IMG/VR virus record: IMGVR_UViG_3300012920_000335
Span: 1 to 21,472 of that record
Direction: 5' to 3' (one strand)
Origin: a virus
Length of the DNA: 21,472 nt
Below, piece by piece: positions 1 through 15,379 of this stretch. Each line of letters opens with the position of its first letter. Positions within the stretch are counted from its first letter, which is position 1. Under the pieces are notes generated by a model that saw only the letters and a list, made by a program, of their open reading frames with translations, was not told the DNA's origin and searched no databases. A program made the position numbers and the translations under genes.

Positions 1-185
1 GCTAGTTTATCTACTACTAAAACATCTTCAATAACTTTACCTACACTTGTATCATCTGTAAAAGTCCATTCGTATTCGAATCCAGTACATCCACCACCTT
101 TAATACTAAGATAAGCATATGTCTTATCTTGTTCTAGTATTTTTTCAGTGATGTAGTCTTTCGCTTTGGAAGTAATACTAAGCAA
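1..185 (-). CDS. IscA/HesB-like A-type iron-sulfur carrier, partial (3' end outside window)
   Basis: The reading frame leaving the left edge matches the start of A-type Fe-S carrier proteins (IscA/SufA/ErpA/HesB). It opens MLSITSKAKDYITEKI, then has a beta segment ending KGGGCTGFEYEW, which fits the family's GGGCSGF(Q/E)Y block with its first conserved cysteine (Cys33). The C-terminal CGC pair that would complete the cluster site lies beyond the window. No ATG is available near the expected N-terminus. I chose a TTG at 185-183, which overlaps the last 8 bases of the upstream fibre gene and has AGGAAAG just upstream. By family, it would bind or deliver Fe-S or iron to client proteins in the host cytoplasm. 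Its place behind tail-fibre genes suggests late expression with them. Relatives occur in marine cyanophages and pelagiphages. The family call is firm; the exact start is less so. Confidence 0.85.
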   Translation of the reverse strand, partial: MLSITSKAKDYITEKILEQDKTYAYLSIKGGGCTGFEYEWTFTDDTSVGKVIEDVLVVDKL

Positions 186-753
186 AGGTCTTTCCTGTAA
201 ATTGAGCTGAACCGCTTGTATCTTGAATAGTAAATGTATTAAATGAAGATACTGGTGTTCCACCTAATGTCAAAGAAGAAGCTGTTATACTTGAAAATGT
301 AGCTCTTGTAGCTGTCAGTGTACTATTAGTATCAAATGTAAGATTAGGTAAATTGACATCTGTCATAAATGTAATAGTGCCAGAAGATTTTACATTTAGA
401 GAACCTTCAATATCTACACTACCTCTGAGATATGTTTTTCCTACCTGGTTTGTTGTACCATAGTTTGTCCAAACATCATCAGAATCTGTACCATAGAATA
501 TTGCACAACCATTAAAACTATCTGAATCAGAACCAAGAAAAATACCACCTTGTTTAATATCAATTGTGGAGCCAGTGAATACAGTATTATTTACAACACC
601 AATATTTCCATTAAAGATAGATTGACCTGTGACTTCTAATCCTGGAAGTGTGACACTCTCAGGATTTTCAAAACCAGTTAAATTACCAGCATCATCAAAT
701 GATAATGAGCTGATTATATCTGCATGTTTTCTAGTTTTACTTTTCTGTGGCAT
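178..753 (-). CDS. Small tail-fibre-like protein (191 aa)
   Basis: I do not recognise a named family. The 191 residues open MPQKSKTRKHADIIS, the KTR(R/K) N-terminus shared with three neighbours. The rest is rich in Gly, Ser, Thr and Asn in alternating beta-type segments (LEVTGQSIFNGNIGVV, GSVDIEGSLNVKSSGTITF, SITASSLTLGGTPVSSF), as in the shafts of trimeric phage fibres. VGKTYLR at 104-110 matches VGKSYVR at 307-313 of the 414-aa neighbour, so the two are probably related. DSD occurs twice (76-78 and 90-92). There is no signal peptide or membrane segment. The stop overlaps the proposed start of the IscA-like gene. Its own ATG lies 13 bases after the preceding stop and has an AT-rich box in place of a Shine-Dalgarno sequence. 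I infer a tail-fibre or virion-surface role. Confidence 0.65.
   Translation of the reverse strand: MPQKSKTRKHADIISSLSFDDAGNLTGFENPESVTLPGLEVTGQSIFNGNIGVVNNTVFTGSTIDIKQGGIFLGSDSDSFNGCAIFYGTDSDDVWTNYGTTNQVGKTYLRGSVDIEGSLNVKSSGTITFMTDVNLPNLTFDTNSTLTATRATFSSITASSLTLGGTPVSSFNTFTIQDTSGSAQFTGKTFA
190..196 (-). promoter_or_regulatory. Shine-Dalgarno sequence supporting a TTG start
   Basis: On the minus strand AGGAAAG lies inside the end of the upstream fibre gene. The AGGA core is 7 bases before the proposed TTG start at 185. This decides the start of the IscA-like gene, which otherwise has only TTG or ATT as candidates near the family's N-terminus. Because the site lies inside the previous gene, translation of the two may be coupled. 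Confidence 0.5.
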
Positions 754-757
754 ATAT

Positions 758-765
758 TATTTAAT
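758..765 (-). promoter_or_regulatory. ATTAAATA box four bases before a start codon
   Basis: On the minus strand ATTAAATA is followed by four bases (ATAT) and then the ATG of the 191-aa gene. It differs by one base from the AATAAATA/GATAAATA boxes in front of other genes here. No purine-rich Shine-Dalgarno sequence is present. If it acts as a T4-type late promoter, transcription would begin at about the start codon. It may equally be AT-rich spacer. Confidence 0.3.
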
Positions 766-766
766 C

Positions 767-2011
767 TTAACTTGGGTCTAAAAATTGAAATGTAGCTACT
801 GTAGAACCAGCAGCATTTATGACGGTAAGATTATATTTACTTGGTATTGATACTTTAGTACTACCAATTGTAAACCCATCACTATCAAAGTTTGCAAAGC
901 CTTCATTACCTTGTAATGCTAGAGTACCATCAGAGTCTGCAATATTACCGGTGACGGTCATATTAGTTCTTCTTGACCTATTTCCAAAACTGCCATCACC
1001 ATCTGAATCATATAATGGTGCAATTTTAAATGTACCACTTCCAGTAAGTGGACTTGAAGTAGAGTTTAAAAATCTTACATATGATTTACCAACTACTTGT
1101 TTTGGTTGAATGAATTCTTCCACACCTTGGTTTCCACCTTGACTAAACATATTTTGTCTGTTTTGACCACCTTTTGCTGCATCATAAGAGCCATCATCTT
1201 GTCTTTCAAGAAAGAATCCTGAGTCTGAATCTGAATCATCTCCTAAGAATCCAAATGTGACATCAGTTGCTTTAAAGATTACTCTTCCTTGTAAGTCTAA
1301 TGTACCAAAGCTTGTGAATACAGTCTCCTCAGAGTCATGTCTGAGTCCAGCATTATCACCACCGAATCCACCGCGTGGATAACCAAATTGTATTGGTGTA
1401 GTTTCACCTGACACTCTAGCAATATTAATAGTTTGGCCACCTTGCTTTCTTCCAAAAATTACATTACCACGGTTTGTAAATCTACCTATCTTCTTCTTTA
1501 CTAGAAAATCATTTGTAATGTTTGTACCGTTAGCAAAGATTGAATCAGAGTCAAGTGGAAACTTTCTATGCAGATTTATATTTCTATAACTATAATTTGA
1601 GGGAAAAACGGCATCAGATTTAAAAAAATATGTTCCATTAAAAAATGTAGTTGTATCTGAATCAGTACCAAGAATAGCGTCTCTAAAACCTGTTGAATTA
1701 ACTTGAGCTATGTATTCTGGTGTTTCTTCATGTGGCTCTACAAAGGGAGGTATAGGAGTTGATGTAAATCTATTGTATTCTTCATCTGTGGCTGCTGGAA
1801 GATTCTCTAAAACACCTCTTGTTGTTCTATAAAAATTATTTGAACCATCTACCTGCTGGCCAACTGAGAGAGCTCCAAATTTTATTGATGTATTATTATT
1901 GTTACCGTAGAGTACGGCATCAGAATCAGTTGATAAAAAGAACTTTCCACCAGAACCGTTTGGGTTTACCGCATTTGCGATTCTTCTAGTTTTTGAAATT
2001 TTATCTGACAT
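767..2011 (-). CDS. Tail-fibre-like protein with DSD motifs and a DxDxDG loop (414 aa)
   Basis: I cannot name the family. The N-terminus MSDKISKTRRIANAV carries the KTRR motif shared in this block. The body is a low-complexity, Gly/Asn/Ser-rich beta-type sequence, with a Gly-Gln-Asn-rich stretch around 280-297 (KGGQNRQNMFSQGGNQGVEE). It then has VGKSYVR (307-313), found also in the 191-aa neighbour. DSD occurs at about 29, 117, 154, 259, 261, 335, 359 and 376, with DSE at 226. DSDGDGSFG at 335-343 has the D-x-D-x-D-G spacing of calcium-binding loops. The ATG follows the previous stop by 6 bases, and the AGGA of TAGGATGTT is a possible ribosome site. I infer a secreted-side virion component, probably a fibre or adhesin, from context and composition; homology is not shown. 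Confidence 0.65.
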   Translation of the reverse strand: MSDKISKTRRIANAVNPNGSGGKFFLSTDSDAVLYGNNNNTSIKFGALSVGQQVDGSNNFYRTTRGVLENLPAATDEEYNRFTSTPIPPFVEPHEETPEYIAQVNSTGFRDAILGTDSDTTTFFNGTYFFKSDAVFPSNYSYRNINLHRKFPLDSDSIFANGTNITNDFLVKKKIGRFTNRGNVIFGRKQGGQTINIARVSGETTPIQFGYPRGGFGGDNAGLRHDSEETVFTSFGTLDLQGRVIFKATDVTFGFLGDDSDSDSGFFLERQDDGSYDAAKGGQNRQNMFSQGGNQGVEEFIQPKQVVGKSYVRFLNSTSSPLTGSGTFKIAPLYDSDGDGSFGNRSRRTNMTVTGNIADSDGTLALQGNEGFANFDSDGFTIGSTKVSIPSKYNLTVINAAGSTVATFQFLDPS

Positions 2012-2017
2012 AACATC

Positions 2018-2422
2018 CTAAAAATTAAAGATTCTGGGTAAGTCACTTTTATTACCATTTACTAAATCAACTGGTCCATTAAAAGCATTCCTTACTGCTC
2101 CTGAAGAAGCACCACCACCTCTGATTAATCCATCTCCCCACGGTCTAATTTTTGTGTTCTGTGCATGATTCTGAACTCCACCACCAGAACCATAACCACC
2201 AGCACCAAGTATATTGCCATCAACTACTAGTTTAATATAGTTTGCATTTGGAAATTCTGGAATTGTAAGTGCAGCAACACCTGGTAAAGATGTAATATTT
2301 ACACTTTCAGGTATTTCAATAATAACAGCAGTAGCATTTAAACGCTCTTTTTCAGAGGGTTCAACTAGATAACCCACTTGGTCTGATGTTATTTTTTTAT
2401 AGTATTGAGTGTGAACATGCAT
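2018..2422 (-). CDS. Small glycine-rich putative adhesin (134 aa)
   Basis: This is an unrecognised 134-residue protein. The N-terminal half (from MHVHTQYYKK) includes a short hydrophobic segment, AVIIEIPESVNITSLPGVAA. The C-terminal half is glycine-rich (ILGAGGYGSGGG and GDGLIRGGGASSGAV), which resembles the glycine-rich loops of phage receptor-binding tips such as T-even gp38 in composition only. I chose the ATG at 2422, one base after the stop of the preceding gene (TAA-A-ATG). A longer frame starting at 2494 would run through the end of the 146-aa gene and is less likely. It contains no DSD, unlike its larger neighbours. Its small size, glycine loops and position after a fibre-like gene fit a fibre-tip adhesin or fibre accessory protein. 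This is inference. Confidence 0.55.
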   Translation of the reverse strand: MHVHTQYYKKITSDQVGYLVEPSEKERLNATAVIIEIPESVNITSLPGVAALTIPEFPNANYIKLVVDGNILGAGGYGSGGGVQNHAQNTKIRPWGDGLIRGGGASSGAVRNAFNGPVDLVNGNKSDLPRIFNF

Positions 2423-2423
2423 T

Positions 2424-2864
2424 TTAGCTAGCCGATGCTTCAGAGAAGAACCATTTACTACCGTCAAAAGTTCCTGAAGCCATCTTAGCAGCATTGCCTA
2501 ATGATGTTCCTTTAGCACCGGTTCCCCAATCAATTGTTAGTGTACCATTGGAGACTATGGATATTTGTGAACCAGTTATCCAACCTGAAAGAGGGACTGT
2601 GACTGTGCCCACACCGGTGTGTATTACTGTTGTCACAAAAGTTCCGGCAGTGACAGTATCATTTGATGTTAAATTTTGTACACTTCCGAGAGAACCAGTC
2701 ATAGATAAACTATTAAACGCACCATCACCAGCACTTACATTTCCACTCACTGTCAAAGTGTTTGATGTAATACCCTGTGTAATGATATTCGTTATATTAG
2801 CATTCGCATCTTGTTGTACCAAATTTGGTAATTCTGCGAATCTTCTAGTTTTTGACTTTGCCAT
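2424..2864 (-). CDS. Small fibre-like protein with KTRR N-terminus (146 aa)
   Basis: This 146-residue protein of unknown family opens MAKSKTRRFAELPNLV, nearly the same N-terminal motif as the 414-aa and 191-aa proteins. It continues with beta-type repeats typical of phage fibre shafts (NTLTVSGNVSAGDGAFNSLSM, GSVQNLTSNDTVTAGTFVTT). It ends in a compact Ser/Trp-containing segment (GTFDGSKWFFSEASAS). LTVSGNVS resembles MTVTGNIA in the 414-aa protein and LEVTGQSI in the 191-aa protein. It has no DSD or DSE. The start has the best Shine-Dalgarno site of the fibre block (AGGAG, 5 bases upstream), preceded by AATAAATA. The stop is one base from the next ATG, so the 134-aa gene is probably translationally coupled to it. 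I infer a short fibre or fibre-attachment protein. Confidence 0.65.
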   Translation of the reverse strand: MAKSKTRRFAELPNLVQQDANANITNIITQGITSNTLTVSGNVSAGDGAFNSLSMTGSLGSVQNLTSNDTVTAGTFVTTVIHTGVGTVTVPLSGWITGSQISIVSNGTLTIDWGTGAKGTSLGNAAKMASGTFDGSKWFFSEASAS

Positions 2865-2869
2865 ATTTT

Positions 2870-2886
2870 CTCCTACTATATTTATT
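2870..2886 (-). promoter_or_regulatory. AATAAATA late-promoter-like box plus AGGAG ribosome site
   Basis: On the minus strand AATAAATA (2886-2879) differs from the T4 late box TATAAATA in one base. AGGAG (2874-2870) follows it, and then five bases (AAAAT) to the ATG of the 146-aa gene. The box overlaps the stop codon of the 703-aa gene. The ribosome site is clear. A promoter role rests on resemblance and on repetition of the same octamer before other genes in the window. Confidence 0.5.
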
Positions 2887-4996
2887 ATCCAGACTGTCGC
2901 TTAAACCAGACCTGCACGTTTATTTGTATCGGGTCTATTGGGTTTGAACTAGCATCCCAAGTTCTTACTCTAATTGCTCTATTATTAGGATTAGCTATAA
3001 GTGGTTTACCACCAAATACATCTATTGTTCTACCAGTTTCTGAATCTGCTCCAGGTCCAGGTGCTACTGCATCAGCTCCTTGAGCATCAATTGATTGGAA
3101 TATAGGTTGTCCCTGTGGAGCACAAGATGATACTGCCATGGACATATAGAATCCATTTGTATCATTTACTGGTACTACCTCAGAATCTAGTAAGAAGTAA
3201 TAAACACCTTCTGCATGTCTAGAATATTTCAATTGGTCTGAGTCAAATCCATAAGTAGCTCTATCAATAATCTTGTTAGGATTAGGACCATTATCTGAAT
3301 CAAAAGAAACTCTCATCCAAGCAGATGTTAGTGGTGTTTCTTTAATTTGGTCTGAGAATTGGTGTGTCCATTGTCCACCAGAGTATACTAATGCTTCACC
3401 AATACTTGGTTGTTGACCGTCTACAGCTTCATCAACATTTGATAATTGACCCAAAGTACTGACACCAGCTGTTGGTCCACTAAATGAGTAAATAGCTACA
3501 AAGTCATTTACATTAAGTTTAGATGGGAACAATATGTCATTACCATTTACTTGATATTCTAATACTGGTGATTGTGATAGTAGTACTCCATTTAAAAACA
3601 CTAGAACATTGAATGGGTCATTAGATGTTTGTAATACTGGTGAACAATCTACAAGTCCTGTAGTAAATCCTGGGTGGTCAGAATCATTTACAGTAAATGT
3701 ATGTTCTAGTGTTTGGAATGCTTCAGAAGGCAGTCTGTTTCCACCTAACTGGTTTGATACATTTCTTATCCATACAGCAGATAATTCATCTGAGTCTTTT
3801 AAGAATTGGTCTGAATCAAATGCAATTATTCTAGAAGTCTTATAAGTATTTACTTGGTCAGAATCTGAATCCCAGAAGTAAAAGTCTCCTTGTGCTTGAG
3901 ATAAGTTAATACCATTCAAGAAGATAAGAGGATTACCACCCACTCTTGCAACAATTAAATCAGAGTCATTGTAAATATCTGAATCAATCATTCTAAATGT
4001 TTGGTGTGTACCATTAGGACTTAAATCAGCTCTTCTTGATTTACGCATAACTACAAAGTCAGAATCAGCAAATCTAAAGTTTTTGTAGAAGTGTGCTACA
4101 GTTTCATCAATTGGTGATATGACTGATACTTCATCATTGGCTTTTAAACTACCATAAAACTTAATAGCATCTGAAGGACCAGACACTACTTGGTCAACAT
4201 CTTTAGTTGTGACATTTGCTAATATCTTATAGTCAATAATTGCGTACTTATCTGAATCTGAATCTCTTGTTGTGGTACCTGCACCTGTTGGAGACTGGCC
4301 ATCACCAAATGCATCTGAATCTACTGGTTGTAAGTGTCCATTTACAAATACTAAAGCGTTAGCATTTGAAATTACTTTTGAGAAACCAATTTTTGTATCT
4401 GAATCTGTGATTGCTTGTGGAGATACAGCGGCTGATTGAAAGTCAATAGTGAAATTACCAGTTGCATCTGGGTCTTGAGGTTCATACTTATTACCAGTCC
4501 ATCTTAAATACTGACCAACTGTAGGACCTTTATCAGCATTCATATCACTCATTAAACGAGTAGCCATTTCAGCTTGAAGTTCTCTTAGTTTTGGATTGTA
4601 ATTAGTATTTGTTGCAGATAAATCATTTCTACTCTTAGCAATAACAGCATCTACAATTGCATCCATGATGTCACTATCAAAGTGTTGTCCAGCACGAATG
4701 TTTACAGTTCCACTTACGTCTTTTGCTACTTTTCTATTATCATCTGCCTGTACTTTTGTAAATACAAGCTTATCTTTAATTTGTGTTGAATGTCTTGTTT
4801 CAATTGTGGGATTTGCTTGGTCGGGATTAACAACAAAAATATCACTATCTTTACCAGAATTATAAGTAGCATTATCTCTTTTTACTGATAAGGTGGTAAA
4901 TGTTTCAATGGTATTATCACTATCAATACGTGATTTAGTTCCATCTACAACAAAACCAGCTCCTAGTTTTGATAAATCTCTTGTCTTAGTTCCCAT
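2885..4996 (-). CDS. Large tail-fibre-like protein with repeated NG-beta modules and many DSD motifs (703 aa)
   Basis: I do not recognise a named protein, but the architecture is fibre-like. The N-terminus is MGTKTRDLSKLGAGF. Two short modules, GQYLRWTGNKYEP (161-173) and GEALVYSGGQWTHQ (533-546), fit the G-x-x-L-x-(W/Y)-x-G-x-x-(W/Y) pattern common in phage fibres. Three modules begin with a (V/I)F(V/L)NG turn: LVFVNGHLQ (215-223), LIFLNGINL (357-365) and LVFLNGVLL (465-473). The third runs on through NGNDILF to NDFVAIYSF. DSD occurs about 15 times without overlap (including DSDSD at 245 and 376), with DSE at 603 and 651. There is one Cys pair (451, 624) and no membrane segment. Its ATG follows the 769-aa gene's stop by 12 bases. 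I infer a distal or proximal tail-fibre subunit beside the baseplate genes. Confidence 0.7.
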   Translation of the reverse strand: MGTKTRDLSKLGAGFVVDGTKSRIDSDNTIETFTTLSVKRDNATYNSGKDSDIFVVNPDQANPTIETRHSTQIKDKLVFTKVQADDNRKVAKDVSGTVNIRAGQHFDSDIMDAIVDAVIAKSRNDLSATNTNYNPKLRELQAEMATRLMSDMNADKGPTVGQYLRWTGNKYEPQDPDATGNFTIDFQSAAVSPQAITDSDTKIGFSKVISNANALVFVNGHLQPVDSDAFGDGQSPTGAGTTTRDSDSDKYAIIDYKILANVTTKDVDQVVSGPSDAIKFYGSLKANDEVSVISPIDETVAHFYKNFRFADSDFVVMRKSRRADLSPNGTHQTFRMIDSDIYNDSDLIVARVGGNPLIFLNGINLSQAQGDFYFWDSDSDQVNTYKTSRIIAFDSDQFLKDSDELSAVWIRNVSNQLGGNRLPSEAFQTLEHTFTVNDSDHPGFTTGLVDCSPVLQTSNDPFNVLVFLNGVLLSQSPVLEYQVNGNDILFPSKLNVNDFVAIYSFSGPTAGVSTLGQLSNVDEAVDGQQPSIGEALVYSGGQWTHQFSDQIKETPLTSAWMRVSFDSDNGPNPNKIIDRATYGFDSDQLKYSRHAEGVYYFLLDSEVVPVNDTNGFYMSMAVSSCAPQGQPIFQSIDAQGADAVAPGPGADSETGRTIDVFGGKPLIANPNNRAIRVRTWDASSNPIDPIQINVQVWFKRQSG
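3482..4360 (-). repeat. Three degenerate F-x-NG beta modules within the 703-aa protein
   Basis: LVFVNGHLQ, LIFLNGINL and LVFLNGVLL recur at residues 215, 357 and 465, roughly 108-142 residues apart. A fourth relative, SVFLNGVLQ, is near the C-terminus of the adjacent 769-aa protein (residues 707-715). The repeat is visible in protein, not as DNA identity. It suggests duplicated fibre domains exchanged between neighbouring genes. Confidence 0.6.
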
Positions 4997-5000
4997 GTTC

Positions 5001-5008
5001 TATTTATC
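5001..5008 (-). promoter_or_regulatory. GATAAATA late-promoter-like box before the 703-aa gene
   Basis: The 12-base gap between the 769-aa stop and the 703-aa ATG is GATAAATAGAAC on the minus strand. It is a T4-late-type octamer followed by four bases and then ATG. An AGGA overlaps the preceding stop codon but is 11 bases from the ATG. The same box-N4-ATG spacing occurs before gp25. It may be a promoter giving a near-leaderless transcript, or simple AT-rich spacer. Confidence 0.35.
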
Positions 5009-7318
5009 CTATTTCTGATATGTTGTATACTTAATTGTTATTACATCTGCAATTGGAACGTTTACAGCAAAGTTAATTGTTATGATTCCAGTAGCTGAAA
5101 CAGCAGATGATGATATATCTACAGTGTGATTTACTGCAGCTGTACCAAGTTTATTTTGTGATGTTGAATTCATTTGTAATACACCATTTAAGAATACTGA
5201 TATATCTGTATTTGCTGGTGTGTGATTACCTTTTGGCATTGTAAACTGGAATGATGAATAACTGCCTTCAGAATCATTTACAATATGTTCTTGAGTAATT
5301 GTTTTTAACTTACTTCTTAAAGTACTTAACTGAGTTTTGAGGATATCACTATCATCTCTCATTGCTTGGATAGCACCTCTAGCAGTACGTTTTTGTAAAT
5401 CAGAATCTGAGTCAAATGTCTGTATATAGTTTTTACGTAATGTAGCTTTTAAGTTTGTACCAGTGTTTAAATCATCAGAGTCTAGTCTTTGTACTCTGTC
5501 TAAAACTAAATTATCAAACCTTACTCTCAGGTCTGAGTCTCTACCCATAGAATCAGAATCAGCTGGTACTGAACTTTCAGATATTCTGTTTAGTAATGAA
5601 GTAAATGTTCTTGAAACTAACTCAGAGTCTGAGTCCATTTTAAAGATTTCTTTTCTAGCAATTCTTCCTATTAAGCTATTCTCAGAATCTTGATTTACAA
5701 GTTGGTTTACAACTATATCTGTCAGTCTATTTTTAATATTCAATCCATCATCAGAATCAGAGTCAATAGCTCTCATTACTACATCATTAGCAATAGTGAC
5801 TCTATCTGAATCATTTAGTGATGTTAAGATACTTCTTCTGAATAATTCTAAATCTGAATCATTATTTCTTACATACTCACTTAGTGGCTGCCATATTTTA
5901 CTTCTATGTAAGTTTTTATCAGAATCTTCTACTCTATTTAGATAACCTAAGAGTTGTCTTTCAGTAAAGCTCTTATTAATGTTTTTAAATGCTTTTAAGA
6001 AAGATGGGTGATAACTATAATAGTTTGAATTAGGTCTCTTACCGCCACCAGTAGTTCTTGATGTATAATCAGAATCTAAGAGTAAAGCAAGTTTATCTGA
6101 ATCAGTAGCTCCAAGTCTTAAACCCATGAATCCCCAGTAGAACTGGTTCCTTGCGACTACTATTCTTACATAGTCTGAGTCTGAAAGAGTCGTTAAGGCC
6201 ACACCTGGTGTGACATGTTTACTATAATTAAGAGAATATCCTCTATCATCTGAATCTACAAGATTACCTTTACCAAAGTTATCATCAATCACACCACCAA
6301 CACCAGCAGAACCAGAAAACTCTGAGTCTCTAGCAATCCAATCAAAATTTAGATATTCATAAAATAAATTAAAATTACCTTGGTGAAGTGGAGCACTTCT
6401 TCTTGTGACTGTTTGATAAGTACCACCTAATCTACTAGCTAATAAGTTTGCACCATAAGTTCTTGTATGTCCAGCATCTGTAAAATCAGAATCTAGCATG
6501 ATACCAGCAACAACTGCTGTAGCTAGTTTTCTTCTAATATAGTATAGTCTACCTCTATTCGTATCTGAATCTGAGAAATTGTTTGTATCAGAGTCATTAA
6601 TAATAGCACCATAAGCTATATCTCTGTTAAATGCTACCGTGTTTCTTTCTGTTGTACTAGCATTAGGTCTAAATCCATATACTGTTTCATCAAAATATGT
6701 AAGTAAACTTTCTAGTAAGTCTGTAGCTGTTGGTTGGTCTGAATCTAAATGGTTTGGAAGGTTTTGAGCTACAGATTTGAAACCTTCACTATCATTTTTT
6801 ACTACATTTAATTCACCTTGCATTCTTCTAAGTTCAACACGGTCAAACTTTAAGAAGTTAAGCAAGTAGCCTTTTAATAATGTAAGTATACTAACCCATC
6901 TTGCAGAGCCATCTGAATCAGCAGTTAAGACAACATGAGGCGAACCAGCATATTGATTACCAGCTCCATCATTATAAGCTACAGGAATTGCATCTAAGAA
7001 TGTACGTAGTTTAGCCCATTCAGTATCACCTATATTTGTATTATTATCAATTGCACTTAGTCTATTCCAAGTGTTAGGTTTACCGAAAAATTGTACTAAA
7101 GAATCTGAGTCTACTCTTTGGTCGATACCTGATATAGTATCTGAATCCATATTTCTAGCGATGTATTTTACATAGGCTTTTAGGTCGTCAGAAAGACGTT
7201 TCTCATCCATTGCGGTAATCCCGCGTTTATCATATATTTTTGAGACTTTCGCCCAACTTGTTCTTAGACCGCTTACATCAGCCTGAAAGGGAGTTATCTC
7301 GGAATCGTTATAAGCCAT
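5009..7318 (-). CDS. Large DSD-rich tail/fibre-like protein with helical repeat region (769 aa)
   Basis: I cannot assign a named family. DSD occurs 21 times without overlap and isolated DSE five times. Residues 1-460 are mixed, with a Tyr/Asn/Gly-rich middle (FNLFYEYLNFDWIAR, KRPNSNYYSYHPSF). Residues about 464-660 look mainly helical, with a DSD or DSE roughly every 16-25 residues followed by a Leu/Arg-rich amphipathic segment (LELFRRSILTSLN, ELVSRTFTSLLNRI). The C-terminus (about 680-769) is a beta domain containing SVFLNGVLQ, also found in the 703-aa protein. The start ATG is preceded by GGTGATAA, a weak ribosome site, and lies on the minus side of the divergent intergenic region shared with gp25. 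Because it is divergently paired with baseplate genes and leads the fibre block, I infer a baseplate-associated fibre or connector. Confidence 0.65.
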   Translation of the reverse strand: MAYNDSEITPFQADVSGLRTSWAKVSKIYDKRGITAMDEKRLSDDLKAYVKYIARNMDSDTISGIDQRVDSDSLVQFFGKPNTWNRLSAIDNNTNIGDTEWAKLRTFLDAIPVAYNDGAGNQYAGSPHVVLTADSDGSARWVSILTLLKGYLLNFLKFDRVELRRMQGELNVVKNDSEGFKSVAQNLPNHLDSDQPTATDLLESLLTYFDETVYGFRPNASTTERNTVAFNRDIAYGAIINDSDTNNFSDSDTNRGRLYYIRRKLATAVVAGIMLDSDFTDAGHTRTYGANLLASRLGGTYQTVTRRSAPLHQGNFNLFYEYLNFDWIARDSEFSGSAGVGGVIDDNFGKGNLVDSDDRGYSLNYSKHVTPGVALTTLSDSDYVRIVVARNQFYWGFMGLRLGATDSDKLALLLDSDYTSRTTGGGKRPNSNYYSYHPSFLKAFKNINKSFTERQLLGYLNRVEDSDKNLHRSKIWQPLSEYVRNNDSDLELFRRSILTSLNDSDRVTIANDVVMRAIDSDSDDGLNIKNRLTDIVVNQLVNQDSENSLIGRIARKEIFKMDSDSELVSRTFTSLLNRISESSVPADSDSMGRDSDLRVRFDNLVLDRVQRLDSDDLNTGTNLKATLRKNYIQTFDSDSDLQKRTARGAIQAMRDDSDILKTQLSTLRSKLKTITQEHIVNDSEGSYSSFQFTMPKGNHTPANTDISVFLNGVLQMNSTSQNKLGTAAVNHTVDISSSAVSATGIITINFAVNVPIADVITIKYTTYQK
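5339..5929 (-). repeat. Degenerate DSD-capped helical repeat array, about 10 units
   Basis: Within the 769-aa protein, DSD or DSE recurs at residues 465, 487, 503, 519, 543, 562, 587, 594, 613, 636 and 656, mostly 16-25 apart. Each is followed by a segment with Leu/Ile/Val and Arg spaced as in amphipathic helices. Asp and Ser are common helix N-cap residues. The units share pattern but not DNA identity. The array may form a helical bundle or coiled shaft. Confidence 0.5.
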
Positions 7319-7375: not shown

Positions 7376-7783
7376 ATGGCGATACAAGAGACATTTCAAA
7401 GAAAAAGCAAGTATATCGATTTTGATTTAAGCTTTACTAAACACCCTCTTACTAATGATTTAGTACAGAAAAAAGGTGCTGCGGCTATTAACCAATCTCT
7501 AAAGACTATTGTGCAAACATCTTTCTATGAGAGACCTTTTAATCCTACTTTTGGTTCTGATGCAAGAGCATTACTTTTTGAGCCAGTTGATAGTATCACC
7601 ATAGAGAATATGAGACGTGTAATCGAAACAGCTATTAGAAACCATGAGCCAAGAGTAAACGTAATCAAGATAGCTATTGGAGATTTAGTTGATGCGAATG
7701 CATACAATATAGGAATTACCTATGAGTTGCTAGATGTAAACACTAATAACGAGGTAAACCTCGTACTTGAAAGATTGAGGTAA
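7376..7783 (+). CDS. 25: Baseplate wedge protein gp25
   Basis: The 135-residue product is close to the length of T4 gp25 (132 aa) and matches it across the core. NQSLKTIV aligns with T4 NSLLGIIT, and ERPFNPTFGSDARALLFEP (52-70) with the RPFDPEFG...LFE block. ETAIRNHEPRV (84-94) carries the diagnostic EPR seen in T4 as SAVRNYEPRI. In T4, gp25 joins the inner baseplate, bound to gp6 and gp53, and helps set the sheath-contraction trigger; its relatives are the gp25-like proteins of contractile injection systems. It starts the rightward operon. Its ATG has no convincing Shine-Dalgarno sequence, but an AATAAATA box lies four bases upstream. gp6 follows after 2 bases. It contains no DSD motif. Confidence 0.95.
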   Translation: MAIQETFQRKSKYIDFDLSFTKHPLTNDLVQKKGAAAINQSLKTIVQTSFYERPFNPTFGSDARALLFEPVDSITIENMRRVIETAIRNHEPRVNVIKIAIGDLVDANAYNIGITYELLDVNTNNEVNLVLERLR

Positions 7784-7785
7784 TA

Positions 7786-9600
7786 ATGCCAGACGATAGA
7801 CCAGTAGTAGCCAATCCTGATTTTAATGATATTAAACAGGACATAATCACTTACTTTAAAAACGATGCTACGTTTTCAGATTATGATTTCACTGGCTCAT
7901 CTCTAAATGTACTAGTAGATATTTTAGCTTACAACACACATTATAATAACTTAACAGCAAACTATCTAGTAAATGAGATGTTCTTAGATACGGCTCTCAT
8001 GAGAAACAATGTGTTGTCTATTGCTAAGATGTTAAATTATCAGCCTCGTTCAGCTCAAGGCGCAAAAGCTACTATCACATTAAGAATTCCTAAAGTCGGT
8101 GGTAATAATCTTTATCAATTACCAATAGGCTCTCTTTTTACAGCAACTGACGGAGCTGAATCATATAATTTTTATACTACAAAAGCTTATTCAGTACAAT
8201 ATGATTCTAGTGAAGCAAATGGTACTACAAAAGACTTAGTTATAGAAGTTGTAGAAGGTAATTCAATTACACAAAGATTTGTTGCTAACTCATCTAATTT
8301 ATCTTTTCCAAAATTTGATTTGCTAAATAAAAATATCGACACAACCACAATTGTAGTTTCAGTCAATGGTGCAAAGTGGACTAGTGTTACGAATGAAACT
8401 CAAGGTACAACTGATGTTAATAATCTTAGTACAATATACTTTATAGAAGAGACAAGAGACCTTACTCATAGAATTATGTTTGGTAATGGTGTTTTAGGAA
8501 AAGCATTACAAGCGGGTGATGAAGTATTAGTTTCTTATATTGTGACAAACGGCTCAGAAGGAAATGGTATTAGTACTTTTACACCAGCAATTGCTGGTAG
8601 AACAGATATTACAATTGTAAGTACTGTAAAAGCTCAGGGTGGTGGAGCAATAGAAACTATTCAAGAAATTAAAGACAATGCACCTAATTTTTTCCAAGCA
8701 CAATTTAGAGCTGTCACAGAAAATGACTACAAAGCTATTTTGAAAAAAGAATATGCTGATATACAGGCACTAAACGTATATGGTGGAGAGACAGTAGGTA
8801 AGCCTGGTAAAGTTTTCTTTTCCATCAAACCAAAATCTGGTGATAAATTAACTGACCAAGCAAAACTAACTATTACAAGAGATATACTTTCAAAATTTAA
8901 TTTAGTCACAGTCACACCTCAAGTTGTTGACCCACAAATAACTAGAATTATAGCTAAAACAATTGTTCAATATGATTCTTCAAAATTAACAACTAGTAAA
9001 GAAGTATTGGAAGCAAAGGTATTATCACTTTACAATGTACTAAATACGACTTATATTGGTGATTTCTTAGAAAGTTTTTCAGTATCAAAACTTACACAAG
9101 AGATATTAGCACTTGATAAAGCCATCGTATCTGCTAATCCAAGAATTAATTTAAGATTTGATGTAAATGCTGAAAATAGACTTTTAGATAATGCTTCATT
9201 CAGTTTTAACAATAAGCTTTTCACAGCACCTTTTGCTGGTGAAGCTTCGGTGGGTGGTGTAATAAATTCAACTTTATTTCAGAGGTCTGGCAGAACAAAC
9301 TTCTCTAAATTTGTAGATGATGGTAAAGGAGTTCTGAGATTAGTAGATGTAATTGGTGATGATAATATTATTGTGAATACTACTGCAGGTACTGTAGATT
9401 ATCAAACTGGAGAAGTTAATGTCAGTGAATTTGACCCTGAAGACGGAAAGATAGGATTCATAGCTATACCAGATTCATTTGATGTACTAACATCAGGAAA
9501 TTACTTATTACAAATATCAGTTGGAGATTCAACAGTGACAGCCATCGATAAAGATGATACAGCTTCACTAAACTTGTTTAATGCATCGAGAGCTAAGTAA
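7786..9600 (+). CDS. 6: Baseplate wedge protein gp6 (baseplate J-like)
   Basis: The 604 residues compare with 660 in T4 gp6. The N-terminal signature is very clear: SDYDFTGSSLNVLVDILAYN (residues 31-50) aligns with T4 LDYDFEGSRLNVLCDLLAYN, followed by a match to the T4 segment on to the MLNYQPRSAQGAK region. Other matches are the AVTENDYKAIL segment (T4 CVTATDYDTFV) and PGKVFFSIKPKSGDKLT (T4 PGYAFIAAKPKSGLYLT). T4 gp6 forms dimers that bind gp25 and gp53 and build the continuous inner baseplate ring, with the iris-like motion on contraction. AGGT lies a few bases upstream of the ATG, overlapping the end of gp25. The stop overlaps the next start by one base (TAATG). It has no DSD or DSE in 604 residues, unlike the next genes. 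Confidence 0.95.
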   Translation: MPDDRPVVANPDFNDIKQDIITYFKNDATFSDYDFTGSSLNVLVDILAYNTHYNNLTANYLVNEMFLDTALMRNNVLSIAKMLNYQPRSAQGAKATITLRIPKVGGNNLYQLPIGSLFTATDGAESYNFYTTKAYSVQYDSSEANGTTKDLVIEVVEGNSITQRFVANSSNLSFPKFDLLNKNIDTTTIVVSVNGAKWTSVTNETQGTTDVNNLSTIYFIEETRDLTHRIMFGNGVLGKALQAGDEVLVSYIVTNGSEGNGISTFTPAIAGRTDITIVSTVKAQGGGAIETIQEIKDNAPNFFQAQFRAVTENDYKAILKKEYADIQALNVYGGETVGKPGKVFFSIKPKSGDKLTDQAKLTITRDILSKFNLVTVTPQVVDPQITRIIAKTIVQYDSSKLTTSKEVLEAKVLSLYNVLNTTYIGDFLESFSVSKLTQEILALDKAIVSANPRINLRFDVNAENRLLDNASFSFNNKLFTAPFAGEASVGGVINSTLFQRSGRTNFSKFVDDGKGVLRLVDVIGDDNIIVNTTAGTVDYQTGEVNVSEFDPEDGKIGFIAIPDSFDVLTSGNYLLQISVGDSTVTAIDKDDTASLNLFNASRAK

Positions 9601-12600
9601 TGGCAAAACACATACTGCCAATAATAAAAAAGCAGCTACCGGAGTTCATAAAATCTGAACATCCTAATTTTCAGTTATTTGTCGAAGCTTATTATGAATA
9701 TCTTGAACAACAAACAGATAGTGATTCTACATCTGCACTAAACCTTTTTAAATCAGTACCAAATGCTGGTGACTTAATACAAAATGCTGAAGCTTATAGA
9801 GATGTAGATACTACACTTACAGCTTTCAAAGAATATTTTCGTAAACAATTAACACCTTTTACTATTAGTGGTAATTCAGTCACTGATGAAGTAATTTTTA
9901 AGAAAGCAAGAGATGTTTATTTAGCTAAAGGTACTCCAAATGCATTTAAGCTTTTATTTAGAATGCTATTTGGTAAAGAGGCAGATGTATTTGAACCAAA
10001 GACTCAGATTATACAAGCTTCAGAATCTCTTTTTACATCCTTTACTCAGATTAAAGCTGAAGTAGTTTTAAATGAAGCTAATCTTAGTGACTTTAACTAT
10101 GAGTTATCTACAATTCGTTTAGATAGTGATACTGTAGATAGTGATGCATCAGCAAATATTCTTACAGTACTTGACGGTACATTTACAGGTGTCACAAAAA
10201 ATAACAATACAGTTCTGACTTTATATCTTACTAAAAATCCAGATTCAGATATTGGTGGAAGACTAGTAAAAGGTAGAGAAGTATTTTTAAGAGACTCTAC
10301 TGACACTTCAAAAGTAGTAAGAGTAAAACTTTTAAATCATATTGGTAATACCACAATTGTGGAAGGTGGTGCTGGTTTTAGAGTAGGTGATAAGTTTTTT
10401 GTAAAAGATACAGCAAATAGTATTCCAGTACAGGTGACTAAAGTTCAGTCTGGTGAGATTGATAGAGTCATGATAAGAAATCGTGGTAAAAATTACAGAG
10501 TTGGTGACACAATTGAGTTTATTAGTGAAGGTGGAGTTGATGGTGCTGGTGCTCTAGCTTTCGTAACTGCTGTAGATGCAGAAGGTGCTGTCACTGAGAT
10601 TGACGGTAGTCAAGTAAGACTTGGTGGAACTGGATATTTAGCTGAAGATTTTGAACCTGTTGTAGTACCAATTATCCAAAAAGGACAGTACACACATATT
10701 CCAGAACCTTTCATAAGAACAATTGATGGAGCTGGATTAGATGCTAGAGGTCTTTCATCTGAAGTCGGTAGAATATTAGAAGTATCTACACCTCAAACAG
10801 GTTTCTTTGATTCAGACCAATTTGGTGTACCACAAATTGAATCACCATTTGCTGTCAGGATTGCAAATCAAGAGTCCATTGATATTGGAAATGTAATCGA
10901 ATTCCAACACTTTTCACCAGATTCAGATGCTGGTAGTATGAGACATGATAGCGAAGTTATTACAATTAATTTGACCTTGCAAGATTCTGATGGTATTACA
11001 AATGATAGTGATACTTTATATTGGGCTGGTACAGAAGAACTTGGTACGAACTACTTATATGAAGGTAAAGAAAATAGTGACTTTGAAGTGAGATATGCTC
11101 CAGGTAGTGCTCTTGATTCAGATAAAAATTTGACCAACTCTTTTTACAACCCTTTGATAGGTTCATTTCCTGGAAACTTCGACTTACACAAAAGTCAGTT
11201 TCATAAAAATGGTATTAGAAGTATGCAATATGCTCATGGTAAAGTTCGTTCAACCTTTGCATTTGGATTAAACGCTCAGACAAGAATTGATGACCATTAT
11301 GTAAACTATTCATCTAACAGGAAATACTTCTTTAAGAGTGGTAATAAATTTAAAATAATTAAAATGCCAGTGGCATGGGATTCAGAAAATTATGTTTGGA
11401 AAATTAGAAGTATAAAGTATTACGATTCAGATGGTGATAGTGACTTTATAGAAAGATGGAAATCAGATTCAGAGTTTGATATTCAAGGTATCACACCAAC
11501 CTACTATTCATGGAATGAAGGAGAAAAAGGTCCTCGAAAATGGGCTAGATGGGTAAGTGCCTGGGCCGGTGCTGAAGAACCAATAAAAGATGTGGATTCA
11601 GATGGAAGAGGTAATTTACGGAAAGTAGCATCTATCACAGGAGCTGAAAATGCTCAAAATGGTGCTATTGCTACAGCTCGTTGGGACAAGATTACAGCAA
11701 CTACAAGAGTTGCAGGTAAACCAGGACAAAAATATGGTTATCCTTCAAACGTTCGTGGTAATGATTCTGAAATTTATGATAGTGATAATAGTTATGAGTT
11801 TGGTGAATTATCTAATGGTCTTGCAACAGGAACTTGGAATAAAACACACTCTTTTGGAAGAGACAGTGATAGAACAACTGTAGCATTAGACTCAGATTCT
11901 TTTACTGAAAACATTAATCATAATAATGGAAACCAAATCTTTGATGTTTTAGGTGGCACAAATGTAAGTGGTTCAGTTAGTATACCTTTTGTTCAAAACC
12001 CATTACCAAGACATGCAGTACAAGCTTTTCCAGTTCAAATTAATGACCCAAGACTTTATAGATTAGATAAGTTTCATATTAATCAATTACAAAATTCAGC
12101 TGCAAATGATTCAGAGCTGACTCAAACTTATTCTTCTCAGGTCTTTGTATCAGCCGATGAAGCTGATTCTGATGGAACTGGTAAAGGTACATCTAAAAAT
12201 ATTGGTACATTTGTTAGCACAGGATATGGTGGTGTAGTCACAACTAAATCTACAGATGGTACAAGCTTTACACTAAGTAGAGCTGATAGTGAACAAGTTG
12301 TGTCAACACTAAATGTCGCTATGAAGTTTCCGAAAGATAGTGATATTGATAGGTTTGATAAAATACCACATGCATTATTAAGAGTTATTAAAGTAAATCC
12401 ACAAGATGGTACTAAACTTTCACAAGAAACTTTCCCAGTATCTAATACTGTAGTGCAGTTTGAATCACCAAAAATTAATGTTCAATTCCCTCTTACTACA
12501 GAAACAGAAAAAACATTCTTAAATGAGAGTGGATTCTTAAGTTCTGTATCAGGTGGTGTACTCAGAGATAACTTTACAGTTTCAGAATATTCTTATATTA

Positions 12601-13943
12601 TTCAGTCAAGCTTAAACATGAATAAGTGGCGTGGACCAATTAAAGATACATTACATCCAGCAGGACTTTACTTATTTGGTGAATTGAATGTAAATACACT
12701 AGCAGACTCTAAAACATCTGAAACTGTAAAACCAACTTCTAATATTGGTAGTGAAACTGCTAATCTTACTTTTGATGCAGATGATGATTACTTTAATGAT
12801 AAGTCTACCGAAGGTGTAGCTGTATTTGCTGATTCTATAGAATTTGGTGCCAACCCTTTTAATATTGTATCACCTACAAATGATGCTTCTGGCACATTCT
12901 TAACTGCAGACTATACACAAAGAAACGTTCAATCATCAATTCTTTCTCAAAGAGGTAATTCATTCTTTGATTATGAACCAGTTGGACTAGTACATAAAGT
13001 ATGGTCAGTGTTTGATAGTGAAGGTCATTATAATTATGTAAGAGGTGCCATTGATTCTGATTCAGATTTAAAAGTAAAATTTGGTATGTACTTTACACCA
13101 AGACAAGGCGATGGTAAATTAATACTTGGTTCAGGATTTGATTCAGATTTCTTTAAACGAGAAATGACTACACAAAAACATGATAGTGAAATTACACGTC
13201 AATCAAGAGTAAATAATAGAAGTCAACACTATGTACCAAGTGAATTTCATAGTGCTAAGAGATATGACAATATAGAAACTATTGGTATTAACCAAATTAA
13301 GTATGAAGACTTTGAACAATTTAGAGTCTATGATTCAGACATACCTGCTGATATATTCCAAAGATTTGATGCTTTAACTGCTTCTACTTTTGAAAAGATA
13401 GATTATACAAGAATTAAAGATAGTGATAATGACCTAGACACATTTAACCAAGCTATTGATAGAACAAGAGAGATTAGAATAGGTAAGTCTGAAGACTTTA
13501 ATACAGCATTAAGACTAAACAATGAATTAGTATTTGAAGAAGGTGATACTAAGTACTATGATATAGATGCTTATGAGAGAAAATATAATATCTTTAATAG
13601 CTTAAGAGACTCAGAGTTTAATGAAGGTTGGAGAATACCAGGTAAAGATGTAGCACTTGGTAATATTAATTTTATTGCTCCAGACTCAGAAATGGATTCT
13701 GATTTAATTGCAAGAGATAGTCAGATTAGAAATAGATTTGCAATAGAAAAAGTAAGAGGTTTCTCAGATGTAAAATCACCAAGAACAGCTAGAGCATTTG
13801 GGGATTATTTAACTGGTGGTAGCACTATTATTGTTAATGCTACATTTCCTTCCGGTGCTGGAATAAATAATACAACGCAACAACTGGGTGTTATTTCAGA
13901 CTCTGACTATAAAGAGAATCTTGAATTTAAGAGAAAAAATTAA
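9600..13943 (+). CDS. gp7-like baseplate wedge protein, greatly expanded and DSD-rich (1447 aa)
   Basis: Two parts match the C-terminal third of T4 gp7. Residues 20-130 (HPNFQLFVEAYYEYLEQ and KARDVYLAKGTPNAFKLLFR) align with T4 DSNFEAFCEAYIQYLSDG and SYDFYSTKGIEASYKFLFK. Around 995-1030, YSYIIQSSLNMNKW...HPAGLYLFGEL aligns with T4 YYVMKIKSNLPSSRW...HPVGFGFIAI. T4 gp7 (1032 aa) is the wedge subunit linking gp10 to gp8 and gp6. Here the T4 N-terminal domains are absent. About 850 residues separate the two modules, where T4 has roughly 150-200, and some 420 residues follow. The insert starts with beta repeats (GGAGFRVGD, KNYRVGDTIEF) and has an aromatic region (PTYYSWNEGEKGPRKWARW). DSD occurs 23 times without overlap and DSE 10 times, mostly in the insert and the C-terminal extension. 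Its ATG overlaps the gp6 stop by one base; its own stop overlaps the next start the same way. Confidence 0.8.
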   Translation: MAKHILPIIKKQLPEFIKSEHPNFQLFVEAYYEYLEQQTDSDSTSALNLFKSVPNAGDLIQNAEAYRDVDTTLTAFKEYFRKQLTPFTISGNSVTDEVIFKKARDVYLAKGTPNAFKLLFRMLFGKEADVFEPKTQIIQASESLFTSFTQIKAEVVLNEANLSDFNYELSTIRLDSDTVDSDASANILTVLDGTFTGVTKNNNTVLTLYLTKNPDSDIGGRLVKGREVFLRDSTDTSKVVRVKLLNHIGNTTIVEGGAGFRVGDKFFVKDTANSIPVQVTKVQSGEIDRVMIRNRGKNYRVGDTIEFISEGGVDGAGALAFVTAVDAEGAVTEIDGSQVRLGGTGYLAEDFEPVVVPIIQKGQYTHIPEPFIRTIDGAGLDARGLSSEVGRILEVSTPQTGFFDSDQFGVPQIESPFAVRIANQESIDIGNVIEFQHFSPDSDAGSMRHDSEVITINLTLQDSDGITNDSDTLYWAGTEELGTNYLYEGKENSDFEVRYAPGSALDSDKNLTNSFYNPLIGSFPGNFDLHKSQFHKNGIRSMQYAHGKVRSTFAFGLNAQTRIDDHYVNYSSNRKYFFKSGNKFKIIKMPVAWDSENYVWKIRSIKYYDSDGDSDFIERWKSDSEFDIQGITPTYYSWNEGEKGPRKWARWVSAWAGAEEPIKDVDSDGRGNLRKVASITGAENAQNGAIATARWDKITATTRVAGKPGQKYGYPSNVRGNDSEIYDSDNSYEFGELSNGLATGTWNKTHSFGRDSDRTTVALDSDSFTENINHNNGNQIFDVLGGTNVSGSVSIPFVQNPLPRHAVQAFPVQINDPRLYRLDKFHINQLQNSAANDSELTQTYSSQVFVSADEADSDGTGKGTSKNIGTFVSTGYGGVVTTKSTDGTSFTLSRADSEQVVSTLNVAMKFPKDSDIDRFDKIPHALLRVIKVNPQDGTKLSQETFPVSNTVVQFESPKINVQFPLTTETEKTFLNESGFLSSVSGGVLRDNFTVSEYSYIIQSSLNMNKWRGPIKDTLHPAGLYLFGELNVNTLADSKTSETVKPTSNIGSETANLTFDADDDYFNDKSTEGVAVFADSIEFGANPFNIVSPTNDASGTFLTADYTQRNVQSSILSQRGNSFFDYEPVGLVHKVWSVFDSEGHYNYVRGAIDSDSDLKVKFGMYFTPRQGDGKLILGSGFDSDFFKREMTTQKHDSEITRQSRVNNRSQHYVPSEFHSAKRYDNIETIGINQIKYEDFEQFRVYDSDIPADIFQRFDALTASTFEKIDYTRIKDSDNDLDTFNQAIDRTREIRIGKSEDFNTALRLNNELVFEEGDTKYYDIDAYERKYNIFNSLRDSEFNEGWRIPGKDVALGNINFIAPDSEMDSDLIARDSQIRNRFAIEKVRGFSDVKSPRTARAFGDYLTGGSTIIVNATFPSGAGINNTTQQLGVISDSDYKENLEFKRKN

Positions 13944-15355
13944 TGGCGACAATTGGTAAAATAACAAACGAATTAAAAACGCTGATAGCAAAATCTACTC
14001 GTGATGAAGTTCGTAATACAAAAAGTGATGACACTTATTATGCCTATATTGCGTACACTGATTCAGAAGATTATCCATTCCATGATTCTGATTTATCAGA
14101 AAATGTCACAGATTCAGACTTAATAAACGTTTATAGAAATATAGTCACAATGCACCGTGTTTTACCTGGTGGTGTATCAAGAGTAATTAAAAGAAAAAAT
14201 TGGGTAAGTAATAGAACATATGTTGGTTGGAATACAGATACATCCAATGATAGTGATTACTATGTCATGTCTACTGAAATTGTTCAAGGTGTGCCTAGAC
14301 AAAATGTATATAAATGTTTATTTGCTCCATCTGGAGTAAATTCAACTGTTGCTCCGACTGGTTCATCATCATTACCTTTTAAAACATCTGATAACCATTG
14401 GTGGCAGTACATGTATACCATTACAAATTCAGATGCTATTTTATTTATGACTGAAGATTTTATGCCTGTACCAGAAAGAGTATCAACTGAAGAATCTCAA
14501 ACAGTGACAAGTGGTACATCAAGATATGACCAATTGCAAGTACAAAATAATGCTATTGCAGGCTCTATCTTTAATATAAGAATCAAACACGGTCCAAATG
14601 AAAGACCAGATTCAGATAAACTAAGAGGTTTTACATCTAAAAATACTGTAAAAATTAGAGGTGTTGATGGTACTGGTGCTACACCTACGCAAGTATTCAA
14701 AGCAACTGCTACTAGAGATAGTGAACAATCTGCAGTTTGGAAATTTACTGTACAACAATATGGTAAAGGGTATACAGCTTTACCTTATGCTATAGATTCT
14801 GAAAATGATTCAGAACTAAGATGTTATAGATTAGACTTGTCACCTGGATTGGGACATGGAGCTGATGCAGGAGATGAATTACAAGCTAGAGATGCTATGT
14901 TAACCTCAAGGGTGATACCATTAGAAAATGGATTTGCTGATTTAGCAGTTGGTGAATTCTCTATGATTGGTCTATTAAAAAACCCAATTGATGCTTCCAC
15001 TAATTTGATTGGTGCTAAAGACTATTACTCAGTGGCACAAAAAATAACCTGTGATAATACAGCACTCTTCAGCATCAATGATACTTTCTTTAAAGACGGT
15101 GATTCAGATACAGCTGGTAAAGTAGTTGCTGTCAAAGGTAAAGAAGTTTACTATATAAACACTGGTAAACTAAGAAAGAATTTTAGTGATAGTGATTCAA
15201 TTATTTCAACTGCACATAACAATACTATTAAAAAAGTTACGAGTGCAGAAATTAAATTTAACAGTGGTAGATTCCTATCTGTAGACTACTTAGAAAAAGC
15301 TCTACAAAGGTCAAAAGACCAGATAGAATCTTTGAATATACTATTGAGATTGTAA
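13943..15355 (+). CDS. 8: gp8-like baseplate wedge protein (470 aa)
   Basis: The product resembles T4 gp8 (334 aa) in order along its length. HRVLPGGVSRVIKRKNW (71-87) aligns with T4 KVLPSMLDAVIPRRDW, NVYKCLF (121-127) with LVYRCLD, and HWWQYMYTIT (152-161) with YVWEYLFEIP. SMIGLLKNPIDA (340-351) aligns with QISIITNPLEA, and the C-terminus GRFLSVDYLEKALQRSKDQI to T4 GEMIYMENRPPIIMAMDQTE. T4 gp8 is a dimeric wedge protein bound to gp7 and gp10 at the baseplate periphery. GHGADAGDEL (304-313) resembles the GHG segment of marine T4-like homologues. The extra length includes DSD-bearing loops, notably an acidic stretch at 40-59 with DSE, DSD and DSD; in all six DSD and four DSE. The gene overlaps the gp7-like stop by one base. 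Confidence 0.88.
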   Translation: MATIGKITNELKTLIAKSTRDEVRNTKSDDTYYAYIAYTDSEDYPFHDSDLSENVTDSDLINVYRNIVTMHRVLPGGVSRVIKRKNWVSNRTYVGWNTDTSNDSDYYVMSTEIVQGVPRQNVYKCLFAPSGVNSTVAPTGSSSLPFKTSDNHWWQYMYTITNSDAILFMTEDFMPVPERVSTEESQTVTSGTSRYDQLQVQNNAIAGSIFNIRIKHGPNERPDSDKLRGFTSKNTVKIRGVDGTGATPTQVFKATATRDSEQSAVWKFTVQQYGKGYTALPYAIDSENDSELRCYRLDLSPGLGHGADAGDELQARDAMLTSRVIPLENGFADLAVGEFSMIGLLKNPIDASTNLIGAKDYYSVAQKITCDNTALFSINDTFFKDGDSDTAGKVVAVKGKEVYYINTGKLRKNFSDSDSIISTAHNNTIKKVTSAEIKFNSGRFLSVDYLEKALQRSKDQIESLNILLRL

Positions 15356-15371
15356 TAAATAGAATGAAGAG
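15354..15371 (+). promoter_or_regulatory. AATAAATA late-promoter-like box and GAAGAG ribosome site
   Basis: AATAAATA (15354-15361) overlaps the gp8-like stop codon. GAAGAG (15366-15371) lies 8 bases before the ATG at 15380. The octamer is one base from T4 late TATAAATA and identical to those at 2879-2886 and 7349-7356 on the other strand. It would give the large tail gene its own late promoter, with a leader of about 13 bases. The ribosome site is moderately convincing. Confidence 0.5.
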
Positions 15372-15379
15372 ATTTATAC

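Follow-up and report, generated by a model that had tools for sequence, protein, structure and literature searches.

A short N-terminal peptide shared by a cluster of four fibre-like proteins in a marine T4-like phage, and its possible role in attachment to the tail

Branched receptor-binding proteins of Klebsiella phages carry a short N-terminal 'conserved peptide' (PMC6872550), and the sections of that work dealing with attachment describe such peptides for the K1-5, SP6, G7C, KP32 and KP34 phages: a heptapeptide and an undecapeptide in receptor-binding proteins of K1-5 and its relatives, and MALxxLV in KP34 viruses. According to the same sections, the conserved peptides attach to the T4gp10-like part of an adaptor or of the first receptor-binding protein (Latka et al. 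2019, PMC6872550), a view restated in a 2026 paper on KP32 gp38 (PMC13082707). In pelagiphages, one section of Mizuno et al. (2014, PMC3909814) reports a receptor-binding-type protein near the tail fibre to which reads were recruited well at the N-terminus and poorly in the recognition domain. Here we analyse the IMG/VR record IMGVR_UViG_3300012920_000335, whose entire 21,472 bases constitute the window, and in which four of the six genes of a minus-strand block encode fibre-like proteins (P1, P2, P4 and P5) that begin with a common short basic peptide. By analogy with the systems above, we favour, with a probability of roughly 0.55, the reading that these proteins are fibres or adhesins of a marine T4-like myovirus and that their N-terminal peptide plugs into a common tail part.

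Like the K1-5, SP6, G7C, KP32 and KP34 systems, the block combines very short conserved N-terminal peptides with different bodies in one module. It differs from them in that its peptide is unrelated in sequence to the MALxxLV heptapeptide and that a single peptide heads four neighbouring genes of a T4-like myovirus. In the pelagiphage section cited above no N-terminal motif is mentioned, and the phages treated are podophages akin to HTVC010P, in contrast to the T4-like baseplate neighbourhood found here. The four proteins and their motifs are the following (ORF, open reading frame).

178 to 753, minus strand: P1, a 191-residue fibre-like protein with N-terminus MPQKSKTRKHADI; an ORF kept in relatives
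715 to 741, minus strand: motif SKTRKHADI in P1, invariant in six contigs, with synonymous codon changes
767 to 2011, minus strand: P2, a 414-residue fibre-like protein with N-terminus MSDKISKTRRIANA; body variable and mosaic across relatives
1970 to 1996, minus strand: motif SKTRRIANA in P2; S-K-T-R and A-N invariant in six contigs, flanks varying
2424 to 2864, minus strand: P4, a 146-residue fibre-like protein with N-terminus MAKSKTRRFAEL
2829 to 2855, minus strand: motif SKTRRFAEL in P4, identical in six contigs
2885 to 4996, minus strand: P5, a 703-residue fibre-like protein with N-terminus MGTKTRDLSKLG
4964 to 4990, minus strand: motif TKTRDLSKL in P5; eight of nine residues equal TKARDLSKL of Pelagibacter phage HTVC025P

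An earlier note on this DNA had proposed a basic N-terminal core common to the 191-, 414-, 146- and 703-residue proteins and lacking from the 134-residue (2018 to 2422) and 769-residue (5009 to 7318) members of the block, and our analysis bears out both statements, together with the lengths, the minus strand and the coordinates. Its wording of the core as KTR(R/K) fits three of the four proteins, the 703-residue protein reading KTRD, and in relatives the residue that follows KTR in P2 is R, K or L. K-T-R is indeed shared, but the common part is longer than the note had it, the starts of P1, P2, P4 and P5 following [ST]-K-T-R-x-[IFLH]-[AS]-x-[LIA]. Over their first 12 residues, these otherwise acidic proteins have a net charge of +2 or +3.

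The sharing of the motif is non-random. In the block, K-T-R falls within residues 2-12 of four of the six proteins. Related or T4-like loci supplied 609 sets of six consecutive ORFs (each of 100 residues or more and beginning with ATG) for comparison; one N-terminal tripeptide occurred in four proteins in only two of these sets, both taken from the corresponding block of a relative of 152 kb (G007). A tripeptide within residues 2-12 common to at least three of six proteins was found in four overlapping runs, all from that relative's block, and of 200,000 sextets drawn at random from a pool that includes the relative's own block, 11 had four sharers. K-T-R occurred in residues 2-12 of 7 of 1045 ORFs, four of these being the relative's block. 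Chance, or a side effect of early codons being rich in A where the genome is AT-rich, would be in keeping with a genome of about 34% guanine plus cytosine and with the A-rich motif codons; against it, K-T-R stands in this position in no more than 3 of the 1041 ORFs outside the block, and no other neighbouring sextet has one tripeptide in three or more proteins. On the strength of both the neighbouring and the random sextets we rejected this explanation, which we consider extremely unlikely. The earlier note had held that its reading would fail if the motif were common on unrelated cytoplasmic proteins; outside the block a similar start is found in 1 of about 195 ORFs of G007, encoding a radical-SAM protein, so that such proteins do not commonly carry it.

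Conservation among relatives points to the protein level. P1, P2 and P4 all keep S-K-T-R unchanged across six aligned contigs (the window, L001, L005, L006, L008 and L010), and T-K-T-R is kept in P5 in six contigs, L002 among them. The core codons of P1 and P2 vary synonymously (TCA/TCT, ACT/ACA), those of P4 are identical in all six, and residues beside the core change (MPQK/MAK in P1; D/R/Q, I/L, R/K/L and I/V in P2). Since the S-K-T-R core stays fixed while its codons vary, selection acts on the peptide and not on the DNA. This bears on the proposal that the conserved unit is a DNA recombination site through which fibre bodies are exchanged just past the start codon. Such a site would agree with the 10-mer AAAACTAGAA, common to P1, P2 and P4 of the window at the motif, and with the mosaic nature of P2 among relatives, but the 10-mer is not kept: relatives have AAAACAAGAA or AAAACAAGAC there and encode the same K-T-R. 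Because the core codons vary, we rejected the DNA-level explanation and hold it to be very unlikely.

The short N-terminal peptide is conserved across relatives while the body varies, most of all in P2. Mean pairwise identity in columns 1-15, as compared with columns 31 onward, is 87.8 v 81.0% in P1, 73.5 v 58.3% in P2, 97.8 v 88.2% in P4 and 100 v 90.5% in P5. All four motif genes occur together in each of the six complete blocks (the window, L005, L006, L008, L009 and L010), giving several candidate receptor-binding genes per module, and L001 has P1, P2, P4 and a cut P5. The idea put forward in the earlier note, that these are alternative fibre proteins for one site, is therefore doubtful; 'alternative' is probably the wrong word, as the four genes look like a set.

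The bodies behind the peptide are only in part as varied as had been claimed. Profile comparisons of P2 with P4 and of P5 with P4 gave no match, in agreement with the claim, but P1 is partly related to both P2 and P4. In P1 and P4, 41 N-terminal columns match (hhalign expectation value (E) 2e-4, probability 46.5%), so that their common N-terminus exceeds the motif, and the P1 body matches the C-terminal half of P2 (profile E 2.5e-6, probability 88.8%), partly through common DSD motifs. Both matches, the first of about 40 residues, are what one would expect from shared ancestry alone, that is, from fibre-gene 5' ends that were duplicated or recombined and carry a peptide with little function of its own. 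This explanation sits poorly with an S-K-T-R core that is fixed while adjoining residues and inner codons change, and with the presence of the same peptide class on unrelated bodies in other phages (see below); we regard it as unlikely. P2 itself is a hypervariable mosaic among relatives (L001, L005, L006, L008 and L010), in which blocks switch partners while the ends and the DSD sites stay, as expected of a host-range protein.

Regarding their identity, Pfam and PHROGs returned no domain above threshold in P1, P2, P4 or P5, whose designation as fibres derives from their position, their variability and the company that similar proteins keep elsewhere. Translated searches (tblastn) with P2, P4 and the P4 N-terminus found nothing in 50,697 phage records; with P5 they gave two weak matches (E 0.2), both in a single Pectobacterium phage and with a kinase annotation, which we dismissed as noise. 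PDB sequence searches with profiles of P1 and P5 and with three proteins of the class described next returned no phage fibre, the best match being a stretch of an arabinanase (E 0.0026).

The starts of P1, P2, P4 and P5 resemble the M[ST]KARDIA[DN] starts of marine phage proteins, which prompted a wider scan. P5 fits the resulting pattern, here named KARDIA-type, M-x(0-4)-[ST]-K-[AT]-R-x-[ILF]-[AS]-x-L, fully, and P4 does so with F; P1 and P2 fit it partly, through the K-T-R core and A-[DN], P1 having H at the hydrophobic place and P2 ending in A. Of the four, P5 ties the KTR form strongly to the KAR form, P4 moderately, and P1 and P2 more weakly. Ranked by BLOSUM62 similarity to TKARDIADL among 200 ORFs of G007, the block proteins take ranks 1, 3=, 3= and 6, the second place going to the radical-SAM protein and the fifth to an unrelated ORF.

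All virus contigs were scanned for start-anchored M-x-K-[AT]-R-D-I-A-[DN], which gave at least 120 stretches, 80 loci being examined. A locus passed if it was preceded by a stop within 15 codons, encoded at least 60 residues or remained open, and had K-[TA]-R read as such. Among the matches listed, 71 of the 80 virus loci have a likely ORF start and are fibre-like, all 71 reading KAR, with a Shine-Dalgarno-like stretch upstream in 68; the other nine were dropped as internal, too short or reading K-[TA]-S. A collection of bacterial and archaeal genomes totalling 257 billion bases yielded 44 stretches with the same pattern, of which two passed, both in Pelagibacteraceae records. With residues 1-14 removed, the 67 of the 71 proteins longer than 90 residues fell by single linkage into five groups (54, 8, 3, 1 and 1) with no blastp link between groups, although domains in common may have chained together the members of the group of 54; five unlinked body groups behind one start amount to the same tag on different bodies. 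Three of seven KARDIA-type proteins matched tail-fibre families, among others, in PHROGs, and in Pfam three of six had Ig-like, glycine-rich or concanavalin-like lectin domains and three had nothing.

Cultured phages with a KARDIA-type protein are HTVC109P, HTVC022P, HTVC025P, HTVC200P, Eistla, Baldr, Eyrgjafa and Roseobacter phage CRP-810. Because it was their bodies that led to them, their starts display unselected variation: TKARDIAD, TKARDLAD, TKARDLSKLL, TKARVFAD, TKARDISKLL, TKARNIANLL, TKARNIADLL and SKARDLANLL, with ARNRDLSKLL in an uncultured relative. The gene lies downstream of an annotated tail-fibre gene in seven of the eight, with one gene between them in CRP-810 and two in the others; the HTVC200P stretch examined ended before the tail-fibre gene. 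In the section of PMC3909814 cited above, C1q-domain proteins adjoin the pelagiphage tail fibre, and the KARDIA-type genes of cultured pelagiphages lie near this position. Most cultured examples are annotated 'hypothetical protein', the products of HTVC022P and Eistla having a lectin-like domain. A related body stands behind MADLRDFTG in the T4-like phage Mosig, and another start is likewise found on a protein of Melnitz whose body belongs to the same family; one body family with different starts fits modular attachment.

Neighbouring genes gave matches in 69 of the 80 KARDIA loci, 35 to T7-like pelagiphage references without T4-like ones and 17 the reverse, these 17 being no proof of a myovirus because the T4-like reference set includes small accessory genes of Melnitz. 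A stricter pattern, M-x-x-[ST]-K-T-R-x-[IFLM]-A-x-L, hit eight virus contigs, six of them known relatives (at P4) and two by chance, away from the start of any listed ORF. The motif letters were not found in phage papers among the literature matches listed, which is weak evidence of their being undescribed, and the class is apparently an undescribed, wider N-terminal signature of marine phage fibres.

A common docking peptide, as proposed in the earlier note, is the best-supported reading of these observations, considering the protein-level conservation, the N-terminal position, the fibre-like genes that the peptide marks and the precedents; attachment itself would follow by analogy, and on that basis the most likely role of the KTR/KARDIA peptide is that of a plug. 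It would fit a pocket on a common tail part, either a fibre hub or a gp9/gp10-like connector, several adhesins would be mounted on the same kind of site within one virion, and their bodies would stay free to change. In this regard, the near-complete relative G007, though not the window, encodes a match to the T4 gp9/gp10 connectors (122660-124084, L024:8660-10084; T4_gp9_10_N and the PHROG 'baseplate wedge tail fiber protein connector'), which is a possible socket, and P6 is another candidate by position only. Short starts similar to that of the connector, of the form GTGD..R.GG.KIN, head other proteins of marine T4-like phages and are another recurrent N-terminal tag.

Several observations weigh against this reading. 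Pfam and PHROGs revealed no T4 gp10-like branching domain (gp9/gp10) in the six block proteins, for which reason we liken the block to branched receptor-binding systems in its presumed working mode and do not file it as a member. The motif-less P6 is likewise more conserved N-terminally (90.7 v 72.5%), so that N-terminal conservation by itself is no argument. The similarity of P2 to the KARDIA consensus is modest when taken alone (score 17, reached by 7 of 807 background ORFs), and the radical-SAM protein of G007 (47631-49148, L020:9631-11148) starts MTNKTRTIIDL. Among the matches listed, KARDIA loci have at most one copy each, four motif copies in a row being peculiar to the window's clade. 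In the nearest outgroup, L026, the single fibre has no real blastp similarity to P1 or P2, and its start, MAKNNRRITN, is merely motif-like. Finally, AlphaFold monomer models are unusable, with a mean predicted local distance difference test score of 29.5 for P2 and 27.7 for P5.

The same peptide could instead be an assembly signal that nucleates trimers or is recognised by a fibre chaperone, without touching the tail. The amphipathic look of the motif speaks for this, as do the very low-confidence models, in which P2 has a short helix at residues 6-11 and P5 one at 8-11, and the neighbourhood of KARDIA-type genes, where the fibre-gene neighbour often matches the Melnitz tail-fibre assembly protein (at least 13 of the 80 loci). 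However, fibre chaperones usually act on C-termini, and the Pfam and PHROGs scans recognised no chaperone-like gene within the window, leaving an assembly signal rather unlikely in our judgement.

If the peptide is indeed a plug, it provides a sequence handle for second receptor-binding proteins in unannotated marine phages and predicts which fibres have an attachment site in common, and a peptide of nine residues would be expected to bind a tail protein or to compete for it. A broader proposal, which we put forward tentatively and deem improbable on balance, is that [ST]K[AT]R-x-[ILF]-[AS]-x-L would be a common plug of marine phages across T7-like podoviruses and T4-like myoviruses, with receptor-binding proteins exchangeable across phage families while the attachment needs no redesign, and with four different fibres mounted at once on one kind of socket in the present clade.

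The rest of the window supports its placement among the marine relatives of T4. The six genes of the block, in the order P6 (769 residues), P5 (703), P4 (146), P3 (134), P2 (414) and P1 (191), run divergently from plus-strand baseplate wedge genes starting at 7376.

2018 to 2422, minus strand: P3, a 134-residue protein without the motif and with a glycine-rich stretch
5009 to 7318, minus strand: P6, a 769-residue protein, first of the block, without the motif; sub-threshold DUF4183 match at 703-736
7376 to 15355, plus strand: divergent T4-like baseplate wedge genes gp25, gp6, gp7-like and gp8-like (Pfam/PHROGs)

P3 matches the profile of phrog_10745, whose function is unknown, and weakly that of a tail-fibre family, and we infer that P6 is a candidate proximal or hub fibre. 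The wedge genes keep the T4-like order gp25, gp6, gp7-like, gp8-like, as in HTVC008M and cyanophage P-SSM2, and the plus strand also encodes a very long DUF4815-containing virion protein. The gp6 of the window shares 33-35% identity with that of HTVC008M, Melnitz, Mosig and P-SSM2, and 76-99% with that of nine IMG/VR contigs. The phage thus belongs to the marine relatives of T4, as a T4-like myovirus. A further minus-strand ORF at 3-263, which overlaps the end of P1 and occupies the same position in relatives, contains a CTGFEY motif and presumably resembles a small iron-sulphur carrier.

The tripeptides DSD and DSE are strongly enriched in this clade, an observation that may be of more interest than the N-terminal tag. 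Window proteins of at least 100 residues contain 113 of them against about 6 expected (about 18-fold), in 22 codon spellings, and DSD alone occurs 88 times in the six richest proteins, where 3.7 are expected. They lie in the window at 178-2011, 2885-7318 and 9600-21472, and in G007 at loci L018-L025. The carriers are P1, P2, P5, P6, the gp7-like and gp8-like proteins and the DUF4815 protein, joined in G007 by ORFs resembling neck, sheath and connector genes; gp25, gp6 and ORFs resembling tail tube and portal are not among them. Across 186 loci, the excess is confined to the clade (L001-L010 and, from G007, L023 and L024; 9- to 19-fold) and the outgroup L026 (9-fold), the next-highest locus reaching 4-fold on 3 counts, and no such enrichment was apparent in HTVC008M, Melnitz, Mosig and P-SSM2. 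PMC8561734 reports that staphylococcal SdgB adds N-acetylglucosamine to a minimal DSD peptide, and sugar attachment is therefore one idea for these tripeptides, which by that analogy might be sites of surface modification such as glycosylation; no SdgB-like enzyme was found among the eight G007 proteins scanned. Separately, G007 positions 65337-66665 (L021:8337-9665) match a DNA alpha-glucosyltransferase (AGT, E 7e-29), a similarity that suggests glucosylated phage DNA in the window's clade.

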